Shown piece by piece: positions 14,897-42,443 of a stretch of 64,000 nucleotides of DNA. The stretch's first letter is position 1. Every line of letters starts with the position of its first letter. The DNA is from an uncultured Flavobacteriales bacterium (GTDB lineage: Bacteria > Bacteroidota > Bacteroidia > Flavobacteriales_D > Parvicellaceae): NCBI GenBank assembly GCA_943788755.1, contig CALSRM010000001.1:310001-374000 (forward strand), given 5' to 3'. The notes under the pieces were generated by a model. The model was given only the letters and a program-made list of their open reading frames with translations, did not search any database and was not told the origin of the DNA. The position numbers were made by a program, and so were the translations under genes.

Positions 14897-16912
14897 ATGG
14901 ATTTCAAACTAGTTTCTGAATATTCTCCAACAGGAGATCAACCGCAGGCGATAAAGCAATTGGTGGAAGGATTAAAAAATGGTGTGAAAGACCAAACATT
15001 GCTAGGTGTTACGGGTTCAGGAAAGACGTTTACAATTGCTAACGTAATTAAAGAGGTGAATAAGCCTACTTTGGTGTTGTCACATAATAAAACATTGGCA
15101 GCACAATTATACACAGAGTTCAAAGCTTTTTTTCCGGAAAATGCTGTAGAATATTTTGTTTCCTACTATGACTATTACCAACCAGAAGCATACTTACCTG
15201 TGACCGATACTTTTATTGAAAAGGACTTGCAAATAAACGATGAGATTGAAAAATTGCGTTTGCATACAACTTCCTCGCTTTTGTCAGGTAGAAAAGATGT
15301 AATAGTTGTCTCATCTGTATCTTGCATTTATGGAATAGGAAATCCAGAGGAGTTTTACCAAGGGGTAAGCACTATAAAAGTGGGGGAAATCGTTTCTCGA
15401 AATAAATTTTTATTAGGCTTAGTTGAAAGCCTGTATTCAAGAACCACGGCAGAGTTTACAAGAGGTACATTTCGAGTTAAAGGAGATACGGTCGATATTT
15501 ACTTAGCCTATACAGAAGTGGCTTTAAGAGTTGTTTTTTGGGGAAATGAAATAGAATCGATAGAAACATTTGACCCAATTAACAACAAAACCGTTGAACA
15601 GTTTCAGGCTTATCAGATATTTCCAGCAAACATATTTATTACGAGTAAGGATACAATCAACAATGCCATCAATGAGATTCAGGATGATATGATGGCACAG
15701 ACTGAGTATTTCAAAGAAACAGGTAAACACCTAGAAGCAAAGCGTCTTAAAAGTAGGGTGGAGTACGATTTAGAAATGATGCGTGAATTAGGGTATTGTT
15801 CTGGGATTGAGAATTATTCGCGGTATTTTGACCGAAGACAACCTGGTACAAGACCATTCTGTCTTCTTGATTACTTTCCTAAAGAGTTTATGATGGTGAT
15901 TGATGAAAGTCACGTCACAATCCCTCAAATTAGAGCAATGTACGGGGGTGATAGAGCACGTAAAGTGAATTTAGTTGACTATGGTTTCCGTTTGCAAGCG
16001 GCAATAGATAACCGTCCACTAAAGTTTGAAGAATTCACAGAAATCATTAACCAGACAATTTATGTAAGTGCTACTCCTGCAGACTATGAGCTGGAAAAAT
16101 CAGAGGGCATTGTTGCCGAACAAATCATTCGACCTACAGGATTATTAGACCCGAAAATTTACATCCACCCAAGTTTAAATCAAATTGATGATTTATTAGA
16201 GGAACTAACGGTTGTTACCGAAAGAGGAGAACGTACGCTTGTCACTACTTTAACAAAAAGAATGGCAGAGGAGTTGGATAAGTATTTGGCAAAAATGGGC
16301 GTTAGGTGTCGTTATATTCACTCTGACGTAGACACATTGGAAAGGGTTGAGATTCTAGCAGACCTGAGAAATGGTTTATTCGATGTATTGATTGGTGTCA
16401 ATTTACTGAGAGAAGGTTTGGATTTGCCTGAAGTCTCTCTAGTGGCTATACTAGACGCGGATAAAGAAGGTTTTTTACGTTCAGAAAGGTCTTTAGTTCA
16501 AACAGTAGGTAGAGCTGCTCGTAATATAAATGGCAAGGTAATTATGTATGCAGATAGAATTACCAATTCCATGCAAAAAACCATGGATGAAACAACACGT
16601 AGAAGAGCTTTACAAATTAAGCATAATGAGCATAATGGAATTGTTCCTGCTCAAATTGTTAAGCCACAACGAGGTACAATTGGGCAAGGAAAAGGTAAAA
16701 CCGGTAATGGTTCTTATGAAATCAATAATGAAATTGGGCTTGCAGCGGATCCAGTTGTTCAATACATGTCTAAAAGTGAACTGGAATTATCAATTCAACG
16801 TGTTAAATCAAGAATGTTTGAAGAAGCTAAAAAGGAGAATTTTATTGAAGCAGCTGTGTTAAGAGATGAAATGTTTTCTCTTAAAAAGTTGTTGATTGAA
16901 AAAATGGGTTAG
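14897..16912 (+). CDS. uvrB: UvrABC excinuclease subunit B
   Basis: 671 aa, standard length. Nucleotide-excision repair helicase-like subunit that receives damaged DNA from UvrA and recruits UvrC. Walker A GVTGSGKT is at 37-44; the damage-probing hairpin YYDYYQPEAYLP at about 91-102; Walker B with MMVIDESHVTIPQ near 332; motif VGRAARN near 540; the C-terminal UVR motif (residues ~630-665) binds UvrC. Stands alone on the plus strand and ends sharing its stop with the convergent secreted-protein gene (TTAG). Confidence 0.97.
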   Translation: MDFKLVSEYSPTGDQPQAIKQLVEGLKNGVKDQTLLGVTGSGKTFTIANVIKEVNKPTLVLSHNKTLAAQLYTEFKAFFPENAVEYFVSYYDYYQPEAYLPVTDTFIEKDLQINDEIEKLRLHTTSSLLSGRKDVIVVSSVSCIYGIGNPEEFYQGVSTIKVGEIVSRNKFLLGLVESLYSRTTAEFTRGTFRVKGDTVDIYLAYTEVALRVVFWGNEIESIETFDPINNKTVEQFQAYQIFPANIFITSKDTINNAINEIQDDMMAQTEYFKETGKHLEAKRLKSRVEYDLEMMRELGYCSGIENYSRYFDRRQPGTRPFCLLDYFPKEFMMVIDESHVTIPQIRAMYGGDRARKVNLVDYGFRLQAAIDNRPLKFEEFTEIINQTIYVSATPADYELEKSEGIVAEQIIRPTGLLDPKIYIHPSLNQIDDLLEELTVVTERGERTLVTTLTKRMAEELDKYLAKMGVRCRYIHSDVDTLERVEILADLRNGLFDVLIGVNLLREGLDLPEVSLVAILDADKEGFLRSERSLVQTVGRAARNINGKVIMYADRITNSMQKTMDETTRRRALQIKHNEHNGIVPAQIVKPQRGTIGQGKGKTGNGSYEINNEIGLAADPVVQYMSKSELELSIQRVKSRMFEEAKKENFIEAAVLRDEMFSLKKLLIEKMG

Positions 16913-17520
16913 AGGTTATGATACCCAACACAAAGAATAATTGCGCCCTTTAATTTCACCACAACATCTTCACCGAATTCATTTATTTCTGTTGTTCTCT
17001 CGACAGCAGGAATAATGTAATTGATAAAAATCTTTTTTAATCTCATTTGATCTACAATAGCTGAATCTATGCCTTTATTTAATTTTACTTCTTTTAATTT
17101 CTCTATCATCACAGTTGTTTCAAAAGAAAATTGGTCTCCACCAACTTCAGCTTGTTCGTAGAGTAAAACTCTCCTTTTATCTTTGCTAGGTTTATCATAA
17201 ATTTGCATCTTTATTTTATCATGATGAATTCCTTTTGTATTGTAAGAAAGTCTGTATTCTGCATCTTGGATTGTTGCTATCTCAACTTCTTTTATGTATT
17301 CATAAGGTTTGTAACCGAATAGAGTTGTTTTTACACCGTCGTACCGGTAAGGTTTTAAGGCTCCTCTACAGGCTTTTTTATACCCTGAAAGTTCTTCTTT
17401 AAGTGCGGCTTTAGCTAAAGCTTGAGCTTCTATTTCATCCTTTTTCTGTTTATTTTGCGCAAAGGTAATATCAGTAAAAAAAAGAATTAGAATAAACGAT
17501 ATGATATATTTAAGCTTCAT
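16909..17520 (-). CDS. Secreted protein, second gene of duplicated lipoprotein module (copy 1)
   Basis: 203 aa. Signal peptide MKLKYIISFILILFFTDITF then Ala-rich charged helix (~25-45) and a beta-rich domain. It shares with the 41068-41520 product a spaced pattern: YRL/YRI, then IYDK, LLYEQ/LLFSN, a late F-x-F-E-T/F-K-I-E-S strand, and a closing KLKGAIILCVGY/KLSGCAIMMIGF. The fold looks like a beta sandwich, perhaps PPC-like, but that is a guess. It lies 9 nt after the lipoprotein gene on the same strand, mirroring the second locus. Ends tail to tail with uvrB with a 4-base overlap. Confidence 0.65.
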   Translation of the reverse strand: MKLKYIISFILILFFTDITFAQNKQKKDEIEAQALAKAALKEELSGYKKACRGALKPYRYDGVKTTLFGYKPYEYIKEVEIATIQDAEYRLSYNTKGIHHDKIKMQIYDKPSKDKRRVLLYEQAEVGGDQFSFETTVMIEKLKEVKLNKGIDSAIVDQMRLKKIFINYIIPAVERTTEINEFGEDVVVKLKGAIILCVGYHNL

Positions 17521-17529
17521 AAATAGATG

Positions 17530-18405
17530 TTATTGCGCTATTGACTCACGAAGTTCAACAATCTTGCCAGACATAAGGGTTATTTCATCTTTGGATAGAA
17601 CAATGTCTATATAATCCGCCTCTTCTCCAAGTGTAGTGACAGATTCTAGATTATCATAAGTATCAACCAAGGCTTGTATAGCTTCCACTAAATCTGCTAT
17701 CTCATCACTTTGGTCTTTTATATGTTGTAGACCTTTTATTAGGATTTCAGCAAGAGTCATTTGTTCGGAGATCAAAACACCAACTCTTTTTTCTTGATCC
17801 AACATAACAGTATTGGCTCCCATATACATGCCTTCTATCCAAGCACCGGTATAGTAAATGACAGATAAGTCTTCTTTTCCATTTTCTTCAATATAATCAT
17901 CCGTATTTTCTTGAAGCAATATTAGAATATCAATGATTGAATCTTGTATAGCTACGTTAGTTTCAAATCGTTCAATCAGACCCGATGTATTGAAAATCGA
18001 TTCCAGTCCTATCTTACTTCCTAGCGTTCTTAATGTCTTTAAAAACTCGCTGGCTTCATCATATTTTTCATGGACAACGCTATATGCTAAATCCGAAGAA
18101 TAAATACCAAAGGCTAAAGCTTGGCTGAGTTTAGTAGAATACTTGTCAACACGGTTTCTAGGATTCGTAAGCTTTAAGTCGTAACTCAATCCTGCTTTTT
18201 TAAATATAGAAGCCACCTGAAGCGTAGATGGAGGTATGAACTCATAATCTTCAGATACTTCATTGTAAATGGCTTCTTCAATTTCATCTTGTGAAATTTC
18301 ATGAAAGTGAACTTCTTTTTTTTCTGCTGGTTCTCCACAACCACTAGCAAGGATTATGGAACTTATTATAATTATGAATAGAGTAAACTGTTTTAAGATA
18401 TTCAT
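17530..18405 (-). CDS. Lipoprotein, first gene of duplicated module (copy 1)
   Basis: 291 aa. Lipobox LASGC, Cys23. The body is predicted almost wholly helical. It aligns by eye with the 41523-42443 product: IPPSTLQVASIFKKAGLSYD versus IPSPVQTAFLIKDVGVPFNS; LSQALAFGIYSSDLAY versus FSKALNLGVYGADLGY; LKTLRTLGSKIGLE versus LKSVRGLSKELGLE; and the strongest signature, GAWIEGMYMGAN versus GGWIESMYIAAD. The family is unnamed to me. Periplasm-facing or surface lipoprotein; function unknown. Its partner follows 9 nt downstream. Confidence 0.75.
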   Translation of the reverse strand: MNILKQFTLFIIIISSIILASGCGEPAEKKEVHFHEISQDEIEEAIYNEVSEDYEFIPPSTLQVASIFKKAGLSYDLKLTNPRNRVDKYSTKLSQALAFGIYSSDLAYSVVHEKYDEASEFLKTLRTLGSKIGLESIFNTSGLIERFETNVAIQDSIIDILILLQENTDDYIEENGKEDLSVIYYTGAWIEGMYMGANTVMLDQEKRVGVLISEQMTLAEILIKGLQHIKDQSDEIADLVEAIQALVDTYDNLESVTTLGEEADYIDIVLSKDEITLMSGKIVELRESIAQ

Positions 18406-33786: not shown

Positions 33787-34044
33787 ATGCTTAAAATGAA
33801 AGTGAAGTTACTATTTATATTTACTTCGATGTTGTTTATAAATATTTGTTTCTCACAGGTAACTGAAGATAATATAAGCAAGGCATTAAATGGATTTAAA
33901 ACAGATCGTGATGCAAAGTTTGGTGTTTTAATCGAATCAAAGGGTAAAAATTACAAGTGGGATTACTTTTATGATAAAACACTTTATAAAATTGATACTG
34001 GTTGGGTCCATATGGTTAATCACCACTTATCGCTCGTCCCTTAA
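33787..34044 (+). CDS. Small secreted protein, C-terminus probably frameshifted
   Basis: 85 aa as read, with signal peptide (MLFINICFSQ end). Residues 25-75, KALNGFKTDRDAKFGVLIES and WDYFYDKTLYKID, look like normal coding text. The read frame then gives NHHLSLVP and stops. Dropping one base near 34015-34019 instead continues ITTYRSSLKAEELNDINASI plus EKK to a TAA at 34090, a far more protein-like end, giving ~100 aa. Start could also be the Met three codons later. Function unknown. Confidence 0.5.
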   Translation: MLKMKVKLLFIFTSMLFINICFSQVTEDNISKALNGFKTDRDAKFGVLIESKGKNYKWDYFYDKTLYKIDTGWVHMVNHHLSLVP

Positions 34045-34193
34045 GGCTGAAGAGTTAAATGATATTAATGCTTCAATAGAAAAGAAGTAATCTTCTAATC
34101 GTATAAATAAAATTGTTTAGCAAGCAACTTTAAATAAAATGCAAGGTTTATTTAGTAATAATTACATAATTTGTGAAATATAAAATTTATCAA

Positions 34194-34604
34194 ATGAGAA
34201 GTATTTTAAAAACCCTATTTTTTTTCATGGTCATTTTGCTTGTTTGCATGCGATGTACAAAAGAGCCTGGTGTTGGCGGTAGTGCAATTGTAACAGGTAA
34301 AATATACGCAGAAGATTATAATGCACTTGGAACACTTACCGGTACGTATTATGCTCAAAATTATAAAGTATATCTTATATATGGGAATGAAAGCGGAGCC
34401 TATGATGATGACGCAAATACGAGTCATGACGGTTCTTTTGAGTTTACATACTTACAAAAAGGAGACTATGAATTATTTGTGTATTCCGATTATTCCTACT
34501 GCCTGGCTTGTGGAAATGCAGGAGATAGTGTTGTTTCAGTAAAGTTTCAAATTACAGACAAGAAACAAGAGTTAAATTTAAGTGATATTACAATTTTCAA
34601 ATAA
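34194..34604 (+). CDS. Lipoprotein with a beta-sandwich domain
   Basis: 136 aa from the ATG at 34194. Lipobox near LLVCMRC (Cys21 likely). The domain GSAIVTGKIYAEDYNALGTL to GSFEFTYLQKGDYELFVYSD follows the CarboxypepD-regulatory-like or Ig-like layout, with a small Cys pair (YCLACGNAGD). Ends six bases before the DUF2490 gene, so the two likely form a unit at the outer membrane. Confidence 0.65.
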   Translation: MRSILKTLFFFMVILLVCMRCTKEPGVGGSAIVTGKIYAEDYNALGTLTGTYYAQNYKVYLIYGNESGAYDDDANTSHDGSFEFTYLQKGDYELFVYSDYSYCLACGNAGDSVVSVKFQITDKKQELNLSDITIFK

Positions 34605-37796: not shown

Positions 37797-40700
37797 CTAT
37801 TTTTTCTTTTTAAGTGAAGGCGTTAAACTGCCAAGACGACCAAATAAATCTAATGTTTTTTTAAAGGTGTCCATATAGAGTGTTATGATTAAGAAAATTG
37901 TCATAAACCATATTACCACAACATTTGCAGAAAATGTGTCAAAATACATCCCGAATAGTTTTTTCTTTGGAGCATAAAAGTGTGCTTTTAAGTAGTCATA
38001 GTCATATGGATCTAGATAAATAGGGTAGGACTTTTGGATTACGTAATTATTATCTTCATCTGTAACTTCGAATGAATTAGTGTTAGTAACAAAATCCTCC
38101 AATGCACTATTCTTATATTTATACATAAACTGATGGAACGATTCTTCTTTCAGTTTAGTCATAAATTTACGTAGTTTTTTATGCTGTTTCTTGTCAATTA
38201 TGTTTTCAATTTTGGCATTGTCTAAAACGGCAATATATTCAACACTAGGTTTCATGAAAGTCTTTTCTACGCTATCTTTTTTATTTTCAAAGGCTTTGTA
38301 TTTTCTTTTGTAGTATTCTTTAACAGTGGCTAGGTATTTTTTTATCTCACCATAAACTTCATCGCTAAATTTGTTTAATGAAAGATTTCTTAAGGTTTCA
38401 TCAGTCACTTTAATTTTTTCGGCATGTCTATTTTCCTTCTCAATTTCATTTTTTAGAATGTGAATAGTTCTTTCTATCGAAATTTTCTTGTCTGGATCCT
38501 TTTTTTCAGAATTAACAAAACTATGAATGCTCTCTAATTTTGCATCAAGGTTACTAACCCATTTATCTTTTTTCCAATTGGAAAATTTCATTTCTTTATT
38601 GTACTCAAAAAAATGTTTTTCATATTCATTGCCTTTAAACTGGGTAACTGCTAGAGCTTCATAGGCCCATCTGGAAGCCATAACGTTACCTATCCATGGG
38701 ACATGTGATTTTGAAGAAAATACAGGATTGAGTTTATCAAATTGAACTAATATGCCACTAAATAGTAATTGGGGTATTATCAATATTGGAATTAAGATAT
38801 AAATCACTTTGACTGAGTTGAATGCGGCTGATATATTGAGGCCTAGTAAGTTAGCGAAGCATGATACAGAGAATAGAATCATCCAATATACAAATGTCAT
38901 ACCCTCAATACCTAATACTGAATTACCTACCAAAACGTAGAAGATGGATTGTATTGCAGAGATTAAAAACATTATAAAAATCTTAGAAAACAAGAAACTC
39001 CCTTTGCTTAGATTTAAGAATTTCTCTCTTTTAAGAATTTTTAAATTCCCTATAATTTCTTCTGCGCTTGTTGTTAATCCAATAAATAGAGATACAATGA
39101 TCGAAATGAATAAAAACTGGGGTAAATTTTCGCTAGTGAAGAACGTATAATCTTCATTGCCTTCAGATGTACTGAAGTACTTCATAAAGAATCCTAGTAT
39201 TCCTGCCAGAGCGGGAGCTTCGAACAAGGTTATAGCCATGTATTGGGCGTTTGTCAATTTAGCTTTTACGTCTCTAATGAAAAATATCGCCGCTTGTTTA
39301 ATTTTTCCAGGAATCTTGAATATGCTTTCAGGCATTTCATTTGCATCTGCTATATCTGTTTGTTTGCTGGAAATCAAGTCAATATAATGTTTGTTCCACT
39401 CTAAAGGAGAAACCTTTCTATGTGAAGTTAAATTCCCATATTCGTCAACTACTTTAGAGTCAATTATATTAAAAATTTGTTCGGGGTTTACATTACCACA
39501 TGTAATACATTCACTTTCTTCAGAATTAACATGTTGCACCAAACGTTTAAAGTAAATAACGGCATCAACTGGATTTCCATTATAAATTGGATATCCACCT
39601 CTGTCTAAAATAATTAGTTTGTCAAACATTTTAAATATGTCTGATGAAGGTTGGTGGATTACAACAAAAATTAATTTTCCTTTTAGCGATAGTTCTTTTA
39701 AAAGATCCATTATGTTTTCAGAATCTCTAGAAGATAAACCGGAAGTCGGCTCATCGACGAACATTATAGAAGGCTCTCTAATGAGTTCTAAAGCAATATT
39801 TAATCTTTTTCTTTGCCCACCACTAATCGTCTTTTCAAGTGGGCTTCCTACTTTTAAGTCCTTAGTCTCATATAATCCGATAGCTTTTAGCGTTTGTACA
39901 CAAAGTTTAGCAATTTGTATATCACTATAATTTCCAAAACATAATTTAGAATTATAAAAAAGGTTTTCAAAAACCGTTAGCTCTTCAATAAGTAAATCAT
40001 CTTGTGGAACAAACCCAATTACTCCTTCTAGTTCTTTTTTGTCTTTGTGAAGATCAATTCCGTTTACCTCTACACAGCCTATGGTAGGCGAGTAGTTGCC
40101 ATTTAAAATATTTAAGAGCGTAGATTTACCTGCTCCAGATCCGCCCATAATTCCAAGTAGATGACCACTTTCTTCATGCAACGTGAAATCTTGTAAACCT
40201 ATATTACCTCCTTTAAAATGATATTGTATGTTTTTCGCTTTAAAAGAAATCTTTTTAGAAGATTTGTCACTTAAAAACTTACCTATGATATCACTGTAAT
40301 ATATCGGCTGAACTCTTGAACTTCTCAAAGAAGATCCCTGAGTTAATACCTGCACTCTTTCTTGTGTTATAATTTGTCCATTTAGATAAAGACCGTGGTT
40401 TCCATAATAACGAACAAAATAAGTGTTTACAGATTGAACTCTAATTACTCTTAAAAAACCTAAGATACTTTCTGAGTAAATGTGTTTGGAGTTTTTAAGT
40501 TTAGTTTCTTTGCTGCTATCAATAACCAAACAAACTTCTTTATCTATCACAGTATTTTCATCTGCATTTACAAAAGCTAAACAATCATCAAATTCTTCTT
40601 TGGGAATATTAAATGTTTCAGCAACTGTTGTAACAAATTCTAATTCTTGTTCGGTAACTATGTCGTTTGCATAAATAAATTCTAGAATTCGAATAAGTAC

Positions 40701-41012
40701 TATGATTTTTTGACGCTGCGCTAATTCCTCATTAATTTGCGTACAGATTCTAAGTACTTTTACCGAATTTACCGATGTTCTTTTTCTTTTACCAACCTTT
40801 TTACTTGATTTACCTTGATGTGACAGTAAAAATTCATCAAACAAAGAAAGATATTCTTTAATTAACTCCTGGTTTAATTCCTGCCGAAGGAATTGTCGGA
40901 CAATCTTACGACCGCCAACATCATAATTGACCTCTCCTGTTTCTTCATTTAATTCCCCTTTTGCGATTATTGCAAAAAGTTGCATTAAGGCTTTGAGTAT
41001 TCTTTCGCTCAT
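37797..41012 (-). CDS. TerB-like/ABCG fusion transporter
   Basis: 1071 aa. Residues 1-150 are TerB-like helices (ICTQINEELAQRQKIIVLIR, TEQELEFVTTVAETFNIPKE). Residues ~155-250 are a small beta domain. The ABC ATPase has Walker A GGSGAGKSTLL (290-300), signature SGGQRKRLNIA (397-407), Walker B IMFVDEPTSGL (416-426) and H-loop IHQPSSD (452-458), the ABCG subgroup pattern. CITCGNVNPEQIF at 502-514 carries a CxxC. Membrane helices run ~595-765 and the last at ~1030-1048, separated by a charged, Lys/Glu-rich ~260-residue insertion (~775-1015). Likely a half-transporter exporter in the inner membrane; substrate unknown. I recall this architecture from other Bacteroidota. Confidence 0.82.
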   Translation of the reverse strand: MSERILKALMQLFAIIAKGELNEETGEVNYDVGGRKIVRQFLRQELNQELIKEYLSLFDEFLLSHQGKSSKKVGKRKRTSVNSVKVLRICTQINEELAQRQKIIVLIRILEFIYANDIVTEQELEFVTTVAETFNIPKEEFDDCLAFVNADENTVIDKEVCLVIDSSKETKLKNSKHIYSESILGFLRVIRVQSVNTYFVRYYGNHGLYLNGQIITQERVQVLTQGSSLRSSRVQPIYYSDIIGKFLSDKSSKKISFKAKNIQYHFKGGNIGLQDFTLHEESGHLLGIMGGSGAGKSTLLNILNGNYSPTIGCVEVNGIDLHKDKKELEGVIGFVPQDDLLIEELTVFENLFYNSKLCFGNYSDIQIAKLCVQTLKAIGLYETKDLKVGSPLEKTISGGQRKRLNIALELIREPSIMFVDEPTSGLSSRDSENIMDLLKELSLKGKLIFVVIHQPSSDIFKMFDKLIILDRGGYPIYNGNPVDAVIYFKRLVQHVNSEESECITCGNVNPEQIFNIIDSKVVDEYGNLTSHRKVSPLEWNKHYIDLISSKQTDIADANEMPESIFKIPGKIKQAAIFFIRDVKAKLTNAQYMAITLFEAPALAGILGFFMKYFSTSEGNEDYTFFTSENLPQFLFISIIVSLFIGLTTSAEEIIGNLKILKREKFLNLSKGSFLFSKIFIMFLISAIQSIFYVLVGNSVLGIEGMTFVYWMILFSVSCFANLLGLNISAAFNSVKVIYILIPILIIPQLLFSGILVQFDKLNPVFSSKSHVPWIGNVMASRWAYEALAVTQFKGNEYEKHFFEYNKEMKFSNWKKDKWVSNLDAKLESIHSFVNSEKKDPDKKISIERTIHILKNEIEKENRHAEKIKVTDETLRNLSLNKFSDEVYGEIKKYLATVKEYYKRKYKAFENKKDSVEKTFMKPSVEYIAVLDNAKIENIIDKKQHKKLRKFMTKLKEESFHQFMYKYKNSALEDFVTNTNSFEVTDEDNNYVIQKSYPIYLDPYDYDYLKAHFYAPKKKLFGMYFDTFSANVVVIWFMTIFLIITLYMDTFKKTLDLFGRLGSLTPSLKKKK

Positions 41013-41067: not shown

Positions 41068-41520
41068 TTATTTTCTTTTCTCGAAACCAATCATCATGAT
41101 TGCACAACCTGAAAGTTTTTTATTCATGTCTAATCTTGTTTCAACGTAGCAATCTATTGTACTTTCAATTTTAAAATCCCAGTATGGAGCATTATTATAG
41201 TCCTTGTTAGAGAAAAGTAAGTTTCTGCTCTTATCGTAAATTTCAAAAATTAAGTAATTTTCAGTTATTCCAGCCGAAGTAGCTATTCTGTAGGTAGAAC
41301 CTCCGTATAATGTTACTTCAAATTCAGTAGATTGGTCTTCATCCAAAAAAGCTCTATAAACTTGACCATCAGAAATGAAAACTCGATTCAACTGTTTATC
41401 TTCACTTGTATTAAGGTAAGAGTTTGTTACATTACTAATCGAGTCACAAGTGATTTGTCCAAAAACAGAAGGACCAATAAGCAATATAATTGCGACAAAT
41501 GTTAATTTAAATAGTTTCAT
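41068..41520 (-). CDS. Secreted protein, second gene of duplicated lipoprotein module (copy 2)
   Basis: 150 aa. Signal peptide MKLFKLTFVAIILLIGPSVF. Beta-rich domain: STEFEVTLYGGSTYRIATSA, ENYLIFEIYDKSRNLLFSNK, WDFKIESTIDCYVETRLDM, and closing KLSGCAIMMIGFEK. Pattern and order match the 16909-17520 product. The layout (receptive strand, Y-R-I, a later D-x-x-x-x-L-L strand) recalls PPC-type secreted domains. Lies 2 nt after the lipoprotein gene, so both are surely co-transcribed. Two Cys (25 and ~130, near the C-terminus) may form a disulfide. Confidence 0.65.
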   Translation of the reverse strand: MKLFKLTFVAIILLIGPSVFGQITCDSISNVTNSYLNTSEDKQLNRVFISDGQVYRAFLDEDQSTEFEVTLYGGSTYRIATSAGITENYLIFEIYDKSRNLLFSNKDYNNAPYWDFKIESTIDCYVETRLDMNKKLSGCAIMMIGFEKRK

Positions 41521-41522
41521 AA

Positions 41523-42443
41523 TTATTCAACGATTTCAGTTCTTATTGATTCAATTTTATTGATGATTGCTTCTAAATCTCCATCAGCAATCTCAACAGT
41601 ATGTTTGCTTTTAATGGTTGTTTCTTTTTTAGATTCGTTTGTGGATGAAGGCACGTACTCGTAAGTATATTTGATTCCTGCAAATATACCAAGTAAATCT
41701 TCTAGCTCATTAATCAAGTCTTCATAGTCAGCGTCAGCGTTATACTGTCCTAACATTGCAATCAAGCTTATTAAGGGGTTTTTTTGATCTCCTAACCTTT
41801 CAATTAATAGAGGATTGTTTGAAGAGACAGCAGCATCTGCAGCAATATACATAGATTCAATCCATCCACCTGCAAGTACTAAAGCTGCTACATCATTTTT
41901 ATCATTTTCTTTTAAGTAATTGTCAGAACTTCTGTAGGCATCAGAAACGAAAACTAACATAGAATCTTGGTTTCCAATATTGGAGCTAAATCTATCTGCT
42001 AATTTTTCGTCAAAAGCACCTTCAAGTCCTAGTTCCTTTGAAAGTCCTCTAACAGATTTTAAGTACCGCAGAGCGCCATCTGTTTGCTCATATATAGTCA
42101 AATAACCTAAGTCAGCTCCATAAACACCCAGGTTTAAAGCTTTTGAAAAGTTAGAAGAATAATTCATTGCATTATCTGCAGGATTAACATAATCGGAGTT
42201 AAAAGGAACTCCAACATCTTTAATTAGAAAAGCTGTTTGAACAGGAGAAGGAATAGAAAATATTTGGTCTCCTATAAGGAAGATGCTTTCATCAGGGTTA
42301 ATACTAGAATCTTTCGAATTTAAATCATCTTCAATCTTATCAGCATCTTTTGTCGTTTCACTTTCTGTTCCACACCTACCCATTAAAATTGCTACTGAGA
42401 ATAAAGATGAACCGATAATGAATAATTTAAGTTTGTTTTTCAT
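41523..42443 (-). CDS. Lipoprotein, first gene of duplicated module (copy 2)
   Basis: 306 aa. Lipobox ILMGRC (Cys24), then an acidic linker (DADKIEDDLNSKDSS). Helical body with the same landmarks as the 17530-18405 product: SKALNLGVYGADLGYLTIY, LKSVRGLSKELGLEGAFDE, VLAGGWIESMYIAADA. It differs by an extra tail from residue ~255 (YTYEYVPSSTNESKKETTIK) before the shared last helix. Family not named to me. Downstream of an AT-rich divergent region shared with pfkA. Confidence 0.75.
   Translation of the reverse strand: MKNKLKLFIIGSSLFSVAILMGRCGTESETTKDADKIEDDLNSKDSSINPDESIFLIGDQIFSIPSPVQTAFLIKDVGVPFNSDYVNPADNAMNYSSNFSKALNLGVYGADLGYLTIYEQTDGALRYLKSVRGLSKELGLEGAFDEKLADRFSSNIGNQDSMLVFVSDAYRSSDNYLKENDKNDVAALVLAGGWIESMYIAADAAVSSNNPLLIERLGDQKNPLISLIAMLGQYNADADYEDLINELEDLLGIFAGIKYTYEYVPSSTNESKKETTIKSKHTVEIADGDLEAIINKIESIRTEIVE

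Follow-up and report, generated by a model that had tools for sequence, protein, structure and literature searches.

The 64-kb stretch of DNA analysed here (the window), from an uncultured Flavobacteriales bacterium, carries two copies of a two-gene unit, a lipoprotein (LP) gene followed by a gene for a small secreted protein (SP), and raises the question of what such a pair does at the cell envelope. The pair at 41 kb encodes an LP of 306 aa (41523..42443, minus strand), recognized from its ORF, homologues and model, with an MGRC lipobox, an acidic tract after the Cys and a predicted all-helical domain, and an SP of 150 aa (41068..41520, minus strand), a putative Sec-secreted, PPC/GOLD-like β-sandwich protein assigned from its ORF, model, fold matches and adjacency to the LP. 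The pair at 17 kb encodes an LP paralogue of 291 aa (17530..18405, minus strand), identified by BLASTP and tree placement, and a long-form SP of 203 aa (16909..17520, minus strand), identified by tree and profiles. The coordinates, strand and gene order of the original prediction are correct, with both pairs on the minus strand and LP first, and the intergenic spacings of 2 nt (41-kb pair) and 9 nt (17-kb pair) are confirmed. It overlooked a third gene: the 41-kb pair is part of a three-gene operon in which the SP gene is followed, after 55 nt, by a gene (37797..41012, minus strand) that by Pfam encodes a 1071-aa TerB-ABC_tran-ABC2_membrane fusion of the ABCG type (the TerB-ABC-ABC2 protein, hereafter ABC). 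The 17-kb SP gene and uvrB are convergent, with stop codons overlapping by 4 nt (window positions 16909-16912), and no Rfam RNA was found in the window.

The module had been predicted to be present twice; both pairs are real, but the genome holds four rather than two, the two in the window and two on contig C3, and these fall into four groups, I to IV. Group I is the 41-kb pair, which is followed by ABC. The other three groups occupy fixed, unrelated neighbourhoods away from ABC: the group II pair comes after polA, the group III pair stands before genes for a DHH-family phosphoesterase and FKBP-type lipoproteins, and group IV, the 17-kb pair, lies between a HAD-like gene with GAPDH and uvrB (gene names are from sequence reading). 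A fifth LP homologue, which has no SP, is found just upstream of an mrp-like gene (L009:5955-6886; G000:C3, about 1175000) and is interrupted by a frameshift that leaves two ORFs, reflecting either real decay or an assembly error.

The two LPs of the window are clear homologues (34% over 146 aa, BLASTP E 3e-31), as had been proposed by eye. The parallel claim for the SPs holds at the profile level but is marginal pairwise, where an E value of 0.009 is unconvincing alone. We built SP group profiles after signal-peptide removal and searched them against 2480 ORFs: the group IV profile recovers 20 group I SPs (best 2e-6), the group I profile recovers three group IV SPs (8e-4), and neither search among these ORFs returned a match from outside the family. 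The group II SP joins groups I and IV (hhalign, 2e-24 for I-II and 4e-9 for II-IV), and an LP-against-SP cross-control gave 0.15. Since signal-peptide-free profiles of separate groups recover each other and hhalign links the groups, the SPs are related, and the dissimilarity that would have spoken against a duplicated unit is not observed. Weak SP-profile matches at window positions 33787-34044 (E 8e-5) and 34173-34604 (2.5e-3) were discarded because they appear to reflect similarity of signal peptides; phylum matches at E of about 5e-4 to 8e-4 likewise cover scarcely more than the signal peptide.

We next asked how faithfully the two genes stay together. LP is present in 53 of 60 related genomes, usually in one to six copies. 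In a set of 173 LP loci of Bacteroidia, assembled from 60 retrieved regions, the earlier loci and 80 named Bacteroidota records, an SP adjoins the LP on the same strand in 169, mostly less than 60 nt apart; one of the four exceptions lies at a contig end, so LP homologues are not mostly partnerless. We compared maximum-likelihood trees for 61 LPs and the 61 SPs that accompany them: both give the same four ancient groups, the two members of a pair fall in corresponding ones, and partners are never swapped; the exception is the L101 pair, which is long-branched and unplaced. Because the two trees are concordant and free of swaps, the pairs were duplicated as units. The proposal of a duplicated unit kept in the same order is thus borne out, and joint function of LP and SP at the envelope is well supported genetically by adjacency, concordant trees and SP homology. 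In one genus (G449 and G522) the order is reversed to SP then LP, with the genes still overlapping, at a distance of about 11 kb from ABC. One LP-SP-ABC locus that resembles those of Fluviicola (L143) is found in a record titled Glaciecola amylolytica (CP034120.1), which is probably misnamed.

The third gene encodes a protein with a TerB-like start, an ATPase domain (PF00005, residues 273-424), an ABC2-type membrane domain (PF01061, residues 575-792) and a stretch of about 270 residues, at about 757-1026, before the last transmembrane segment; TerB itself scores above the Pfam cut-off in two relatives. The placement of the ATPase domain N-terminal to the ABC2-type membrane domain in one polypeptide is the layout of ABCG/White (EPD) half-transporters such as ABCG1, and the best solved relatives with this layout are ABCG exporters (ABCG1, phmmer 1e-41 over residues 274-788). 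Unlike these half-transporters, ABC has the N-terminal TerB domain and the roughly 270-residue stretch, and is accompanied by a dedicated lipoprotein and a secreted partner. It scores 250.6 bits against the pigment precursor permease model TIGR00955, far below the curated cut-off of 736 bits, and is not a member of that family. Our literature search found no description of an ABC protein with a TerB domain of this kind.

Of 98 group I loci, 91 have ABC downstream of the pair in the same orientation, with SP-to-ABC gaps of 7-192 nt in 89 of these 91 and of 564 and 583 nt in the other two; one of the seven loci without a downstream ABC ends at a contig edge. In a separate class sample, counting just the 88 genomes whose listed top LP and top ABC matches lie on the same contig, ABC is placed 460-1104 nt after LP in 86, with a median of 553 nt, which is space for one SP gene. 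In roughly ten further class genomes, several of them in family f94, the LP and ABC matches listed are on different contigs, and some lineages may therefore have lost the linkage. A second lineage has an alternative operon order, ABC-LP-SP. In L219 and L221 (G106 and G243), LP is followed directly by ABC; since no SP lies between them, LP-ABC may be the older core. Two further copies of the exporter gene were also noted: L223 (G037:C117) is a second TerB-ABC copy that adjoins neither LP-SP nor SiaBC, and an ABC relative in a reduced genome of genus g3 (G036:C5:154055-156238) is full of stop codons, which suggests ongoing loss of the exporter there.

LP and ABC also co-occur beyond these loci. 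Both are found in 46 of the 60 related genomes, with LP only in seven, ABC only in none and neither in seven; the corresponding numbers for 396 genomes of the class are 184, 4, 6 and 202 (counted by genus, 88 and 90 of 199). Among 296 genomes of the phylum, the same seven hold both LP (E 1e-10 or better) and ABC, two of them representing a remote family with distant LP and TerB-ABC copies. The Fisher values for this co-occurrence are tiny but ignore shared descent, and the presence of the association in separated clades, together with several losses, is the sounder argument for it. Absences in these large searches are soft because their first-look step scores few candidates per genome. The genetics supports LP, SP and ABC as a functional unit, and we give about an even chance to the reading in which an ABCG-type (TerB-ABC-ABC2) exporter under SiaABC-like control has LP and SP as its partners on the envelope side.

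The main evidence against this reading is that groups II to IV lie apart from ABC and that three genomes (G013, G031 and G035) have LP-SP pairs, with groups III and IV persisting, and no ABC match. Because those groups stand away from ABC, in some genomes where none was found, the pair may be a module that is deployed repeatedly, together with the exporter in some cases and without it in others. Further points against it are the LP-ABC loci lacking SP, the solitary ABC of L223, the lack of Sia genes beside the ABC of the window and the lack of a fold match for LP. LP and SP might instead form a self-contained envelope complex, for ligand binding or as a chaperone or structural assembly, with ABC no more than one client of one of the four pairs. 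Three of four groups being far from ABC, the persistence of groups III and IV in genomes with no ABC match, and the linkage kept in G449 and G522 despite reversed order and a distance of about 11 kb all agree with a self-contained complex. We regard this as a possible, though doubtful, alternative in view of the near-perfect LP/ABC co-occurrence across the class, the loci of one family in which LP and ABC adjoin without SP, and the two different operon orders that include ABC.

The folds of LP and SP give further clues. Neither matches Pfam, NCBIfam or PDB sequences, and the four SPs match no Pfam family up to E 1, including PPC (PF04151). The SP model (pLDDT 90.4) has a helix and a β-sandwich, and its structure matches are tied and middling (Z 7.5-8.7 over about 88-98 residues) among PPC (Z up to 8.6), GOLD, collagen-binding and PliG domains. 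The predicted fold may be that of PPC domains, a jelly-roll β-sandwich, or of GOLD domains; unlike PPC, SP is a stand-alone secreted protein rather than a C-terminal enzyme domain, and has no Pfam sequence match. The presence of PliG among the top, tied matches (Z 8.7, 94 residues, 3.8 Å, 7% identity) would allow SP, partnered by LP at the surface, to act as a periplasmic lysozyme inhibitor or within a toxin-immunity pair. We consider this highly improbable, as PPC, GOLD and collagen-binding domains score less than one Z unit away and the pairs occupy a conserved ABC operon and fixed housekeeping neighbourhoods, not variable or mobile loci. The LP model (pLDDT 84.5) is mostly helical with few short strands. 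EfeO, Algp7 and BF3319 emerged only as weak helical look-alikes (best Z 6.8; Foldseek and VIA-align) and were rejected as relatives, and these searches returned no credible solved structural relative of LP. Bacteroidota lipoproteins have a described surface-export signal, LES (PMC5080379), consisting of acidic or charged residues directly behind the lipidated cysteine, which the acidic tract of the LPs resembles in a crude test (31% D/E at positions +2 to +9 in LPs versus 14% in 50 other lipobox ORFs).

Control by SiaABC-like proteins is suggested by the neighbours of ABC in other genomes. SiaB-like, SiaC-family, ABC, LP and SP genes are found in a single run in G040, G106, G243 and G030, with a SpoIIE phosphatase gene upstream in G040 and G243, and G023 has the order ABC-LP-small protein-SiaB. 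Among the 44 group I loci with sequence beyond ABC, SiaB and/or SiaC genes are convergent directly after ABC in 15, from six families; at a density of about nine SiaC genes in 3.2 Mb, a 2-kb stretch would contain one by chance in roughly 0.6% of cases. L227 and L228 harbor SiaABC modules of adjacent SpoIIE, SiaB-like and SiaC genes, the SiaB-like protein of L227 carrying DUF6272, which we take to be the SiaB family. As in SiaABCD of Pseudomonas aeruginosa, a SiaC-family protein (PF09345), a DUF6272 protein at the SiaB position and a SpoIIE-type phosphatase occur together; unlike in SiaABCD, the place of the diguanylate cyclase SiaD beside them is taken by the TerB-ABC exporter and LP-SP, and in the genome of the window the Sia genes are not beside ABC. 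In that genome (G000), nine genes score above the Pfam cut-off for the SiaC family, a large partner-switch set, and none of them adjoins ABC; the group III pair has one at a distance of 2.5 kb, which could be chance with nine copies per genome. In Pseudomonas, SiaC activates the cyclase SiaD and is itself switched by phosphorylation (PMC7647112, PMC8457831), and SiaC-family proteins have been proposed by the authors to modulate adjacent proteins (PMC8457831). We found no description of Bacteroidota SiaC/DUF1987 proteins in the literature searched.

The SiaB/SiaC neighbours, the TerB domain and the long stretch before the last membrane segment are also compatible with a nontransporting role, in which TerB-ABC would pass the state of SiaABC to LP-SP in the envelope as a signal or force transmitter, as FtsEX and MacB-like proteins are thought to do. 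We judge such a role unlikely, since the domain order and best solved relatives are those of ABCG exporters such as ABCG1 and the large cytoplasmic part could equally well regulate transport.

Returning to LP and SP as partners of an exporter, an ABC dimer would spend ATP on extracting a substrate, either hydrophobic or resembling a peptide, from the inner membrane. LP would be attached to the outer membrane, possibly exposed on the cell surface in view of the acidic residues behind its cysteine. Together with LP, the soluble β-sandwich SP would take up the substrate or direct its passage, or would connect the exporter with the outer membrane. The exporter may be gated through its cytoplasmic TerB end by SiaC, whose state is set by the SiaB kinase and the SiaA phosphatase, and the LP-SP pairs of groups II to IV would be specialized copies that no longer need an adjacent ABC. 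Transport, its direction and substrate, contacts among LP, SP and ABC, and Sia control are all features that we infer. This arrangement is like that of MacAB-TolC tripartite exporters in tying an ABC exporter to envelope partners; unlike MacAB-TolC, the operon contains no HlyD-type adaptor or outer-membrane factor, and LP and SP, which have no Pfam match, are predicted to be all-helical or mostly α and a mostly β sandwich, respectively.

A more specific and tentative proposal, less probable than not, is that a SiaABC-type phospho-switch gates the ABCG-type exporter directly via TerB, with LP and SP completing a new trans-envelope export path in Bacteroidia. Direct TerB gating, if true, would be a SiaC output that does not involve c-di-GMP, and in some genomes four LP-SP pairs would act in parallel as acceptors. 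The recurrence of Sia genes beside ABC suggests a SiaC-family target other than a diguanylate cyclase. One exporter is regularly accompanied by two families that are nameless in Pfam and NCBIfam, and around half of the Bacteroidia genomes sampled contain LP and this exporter. The conserved LP-SP-ABC operon suggests that common Bacteroidia possess an envelope device for export or signalling that has not been described before, and a dedicated, regulated ABCG-type export device would close a gap in knowledge of the Bacteroidota envelope.
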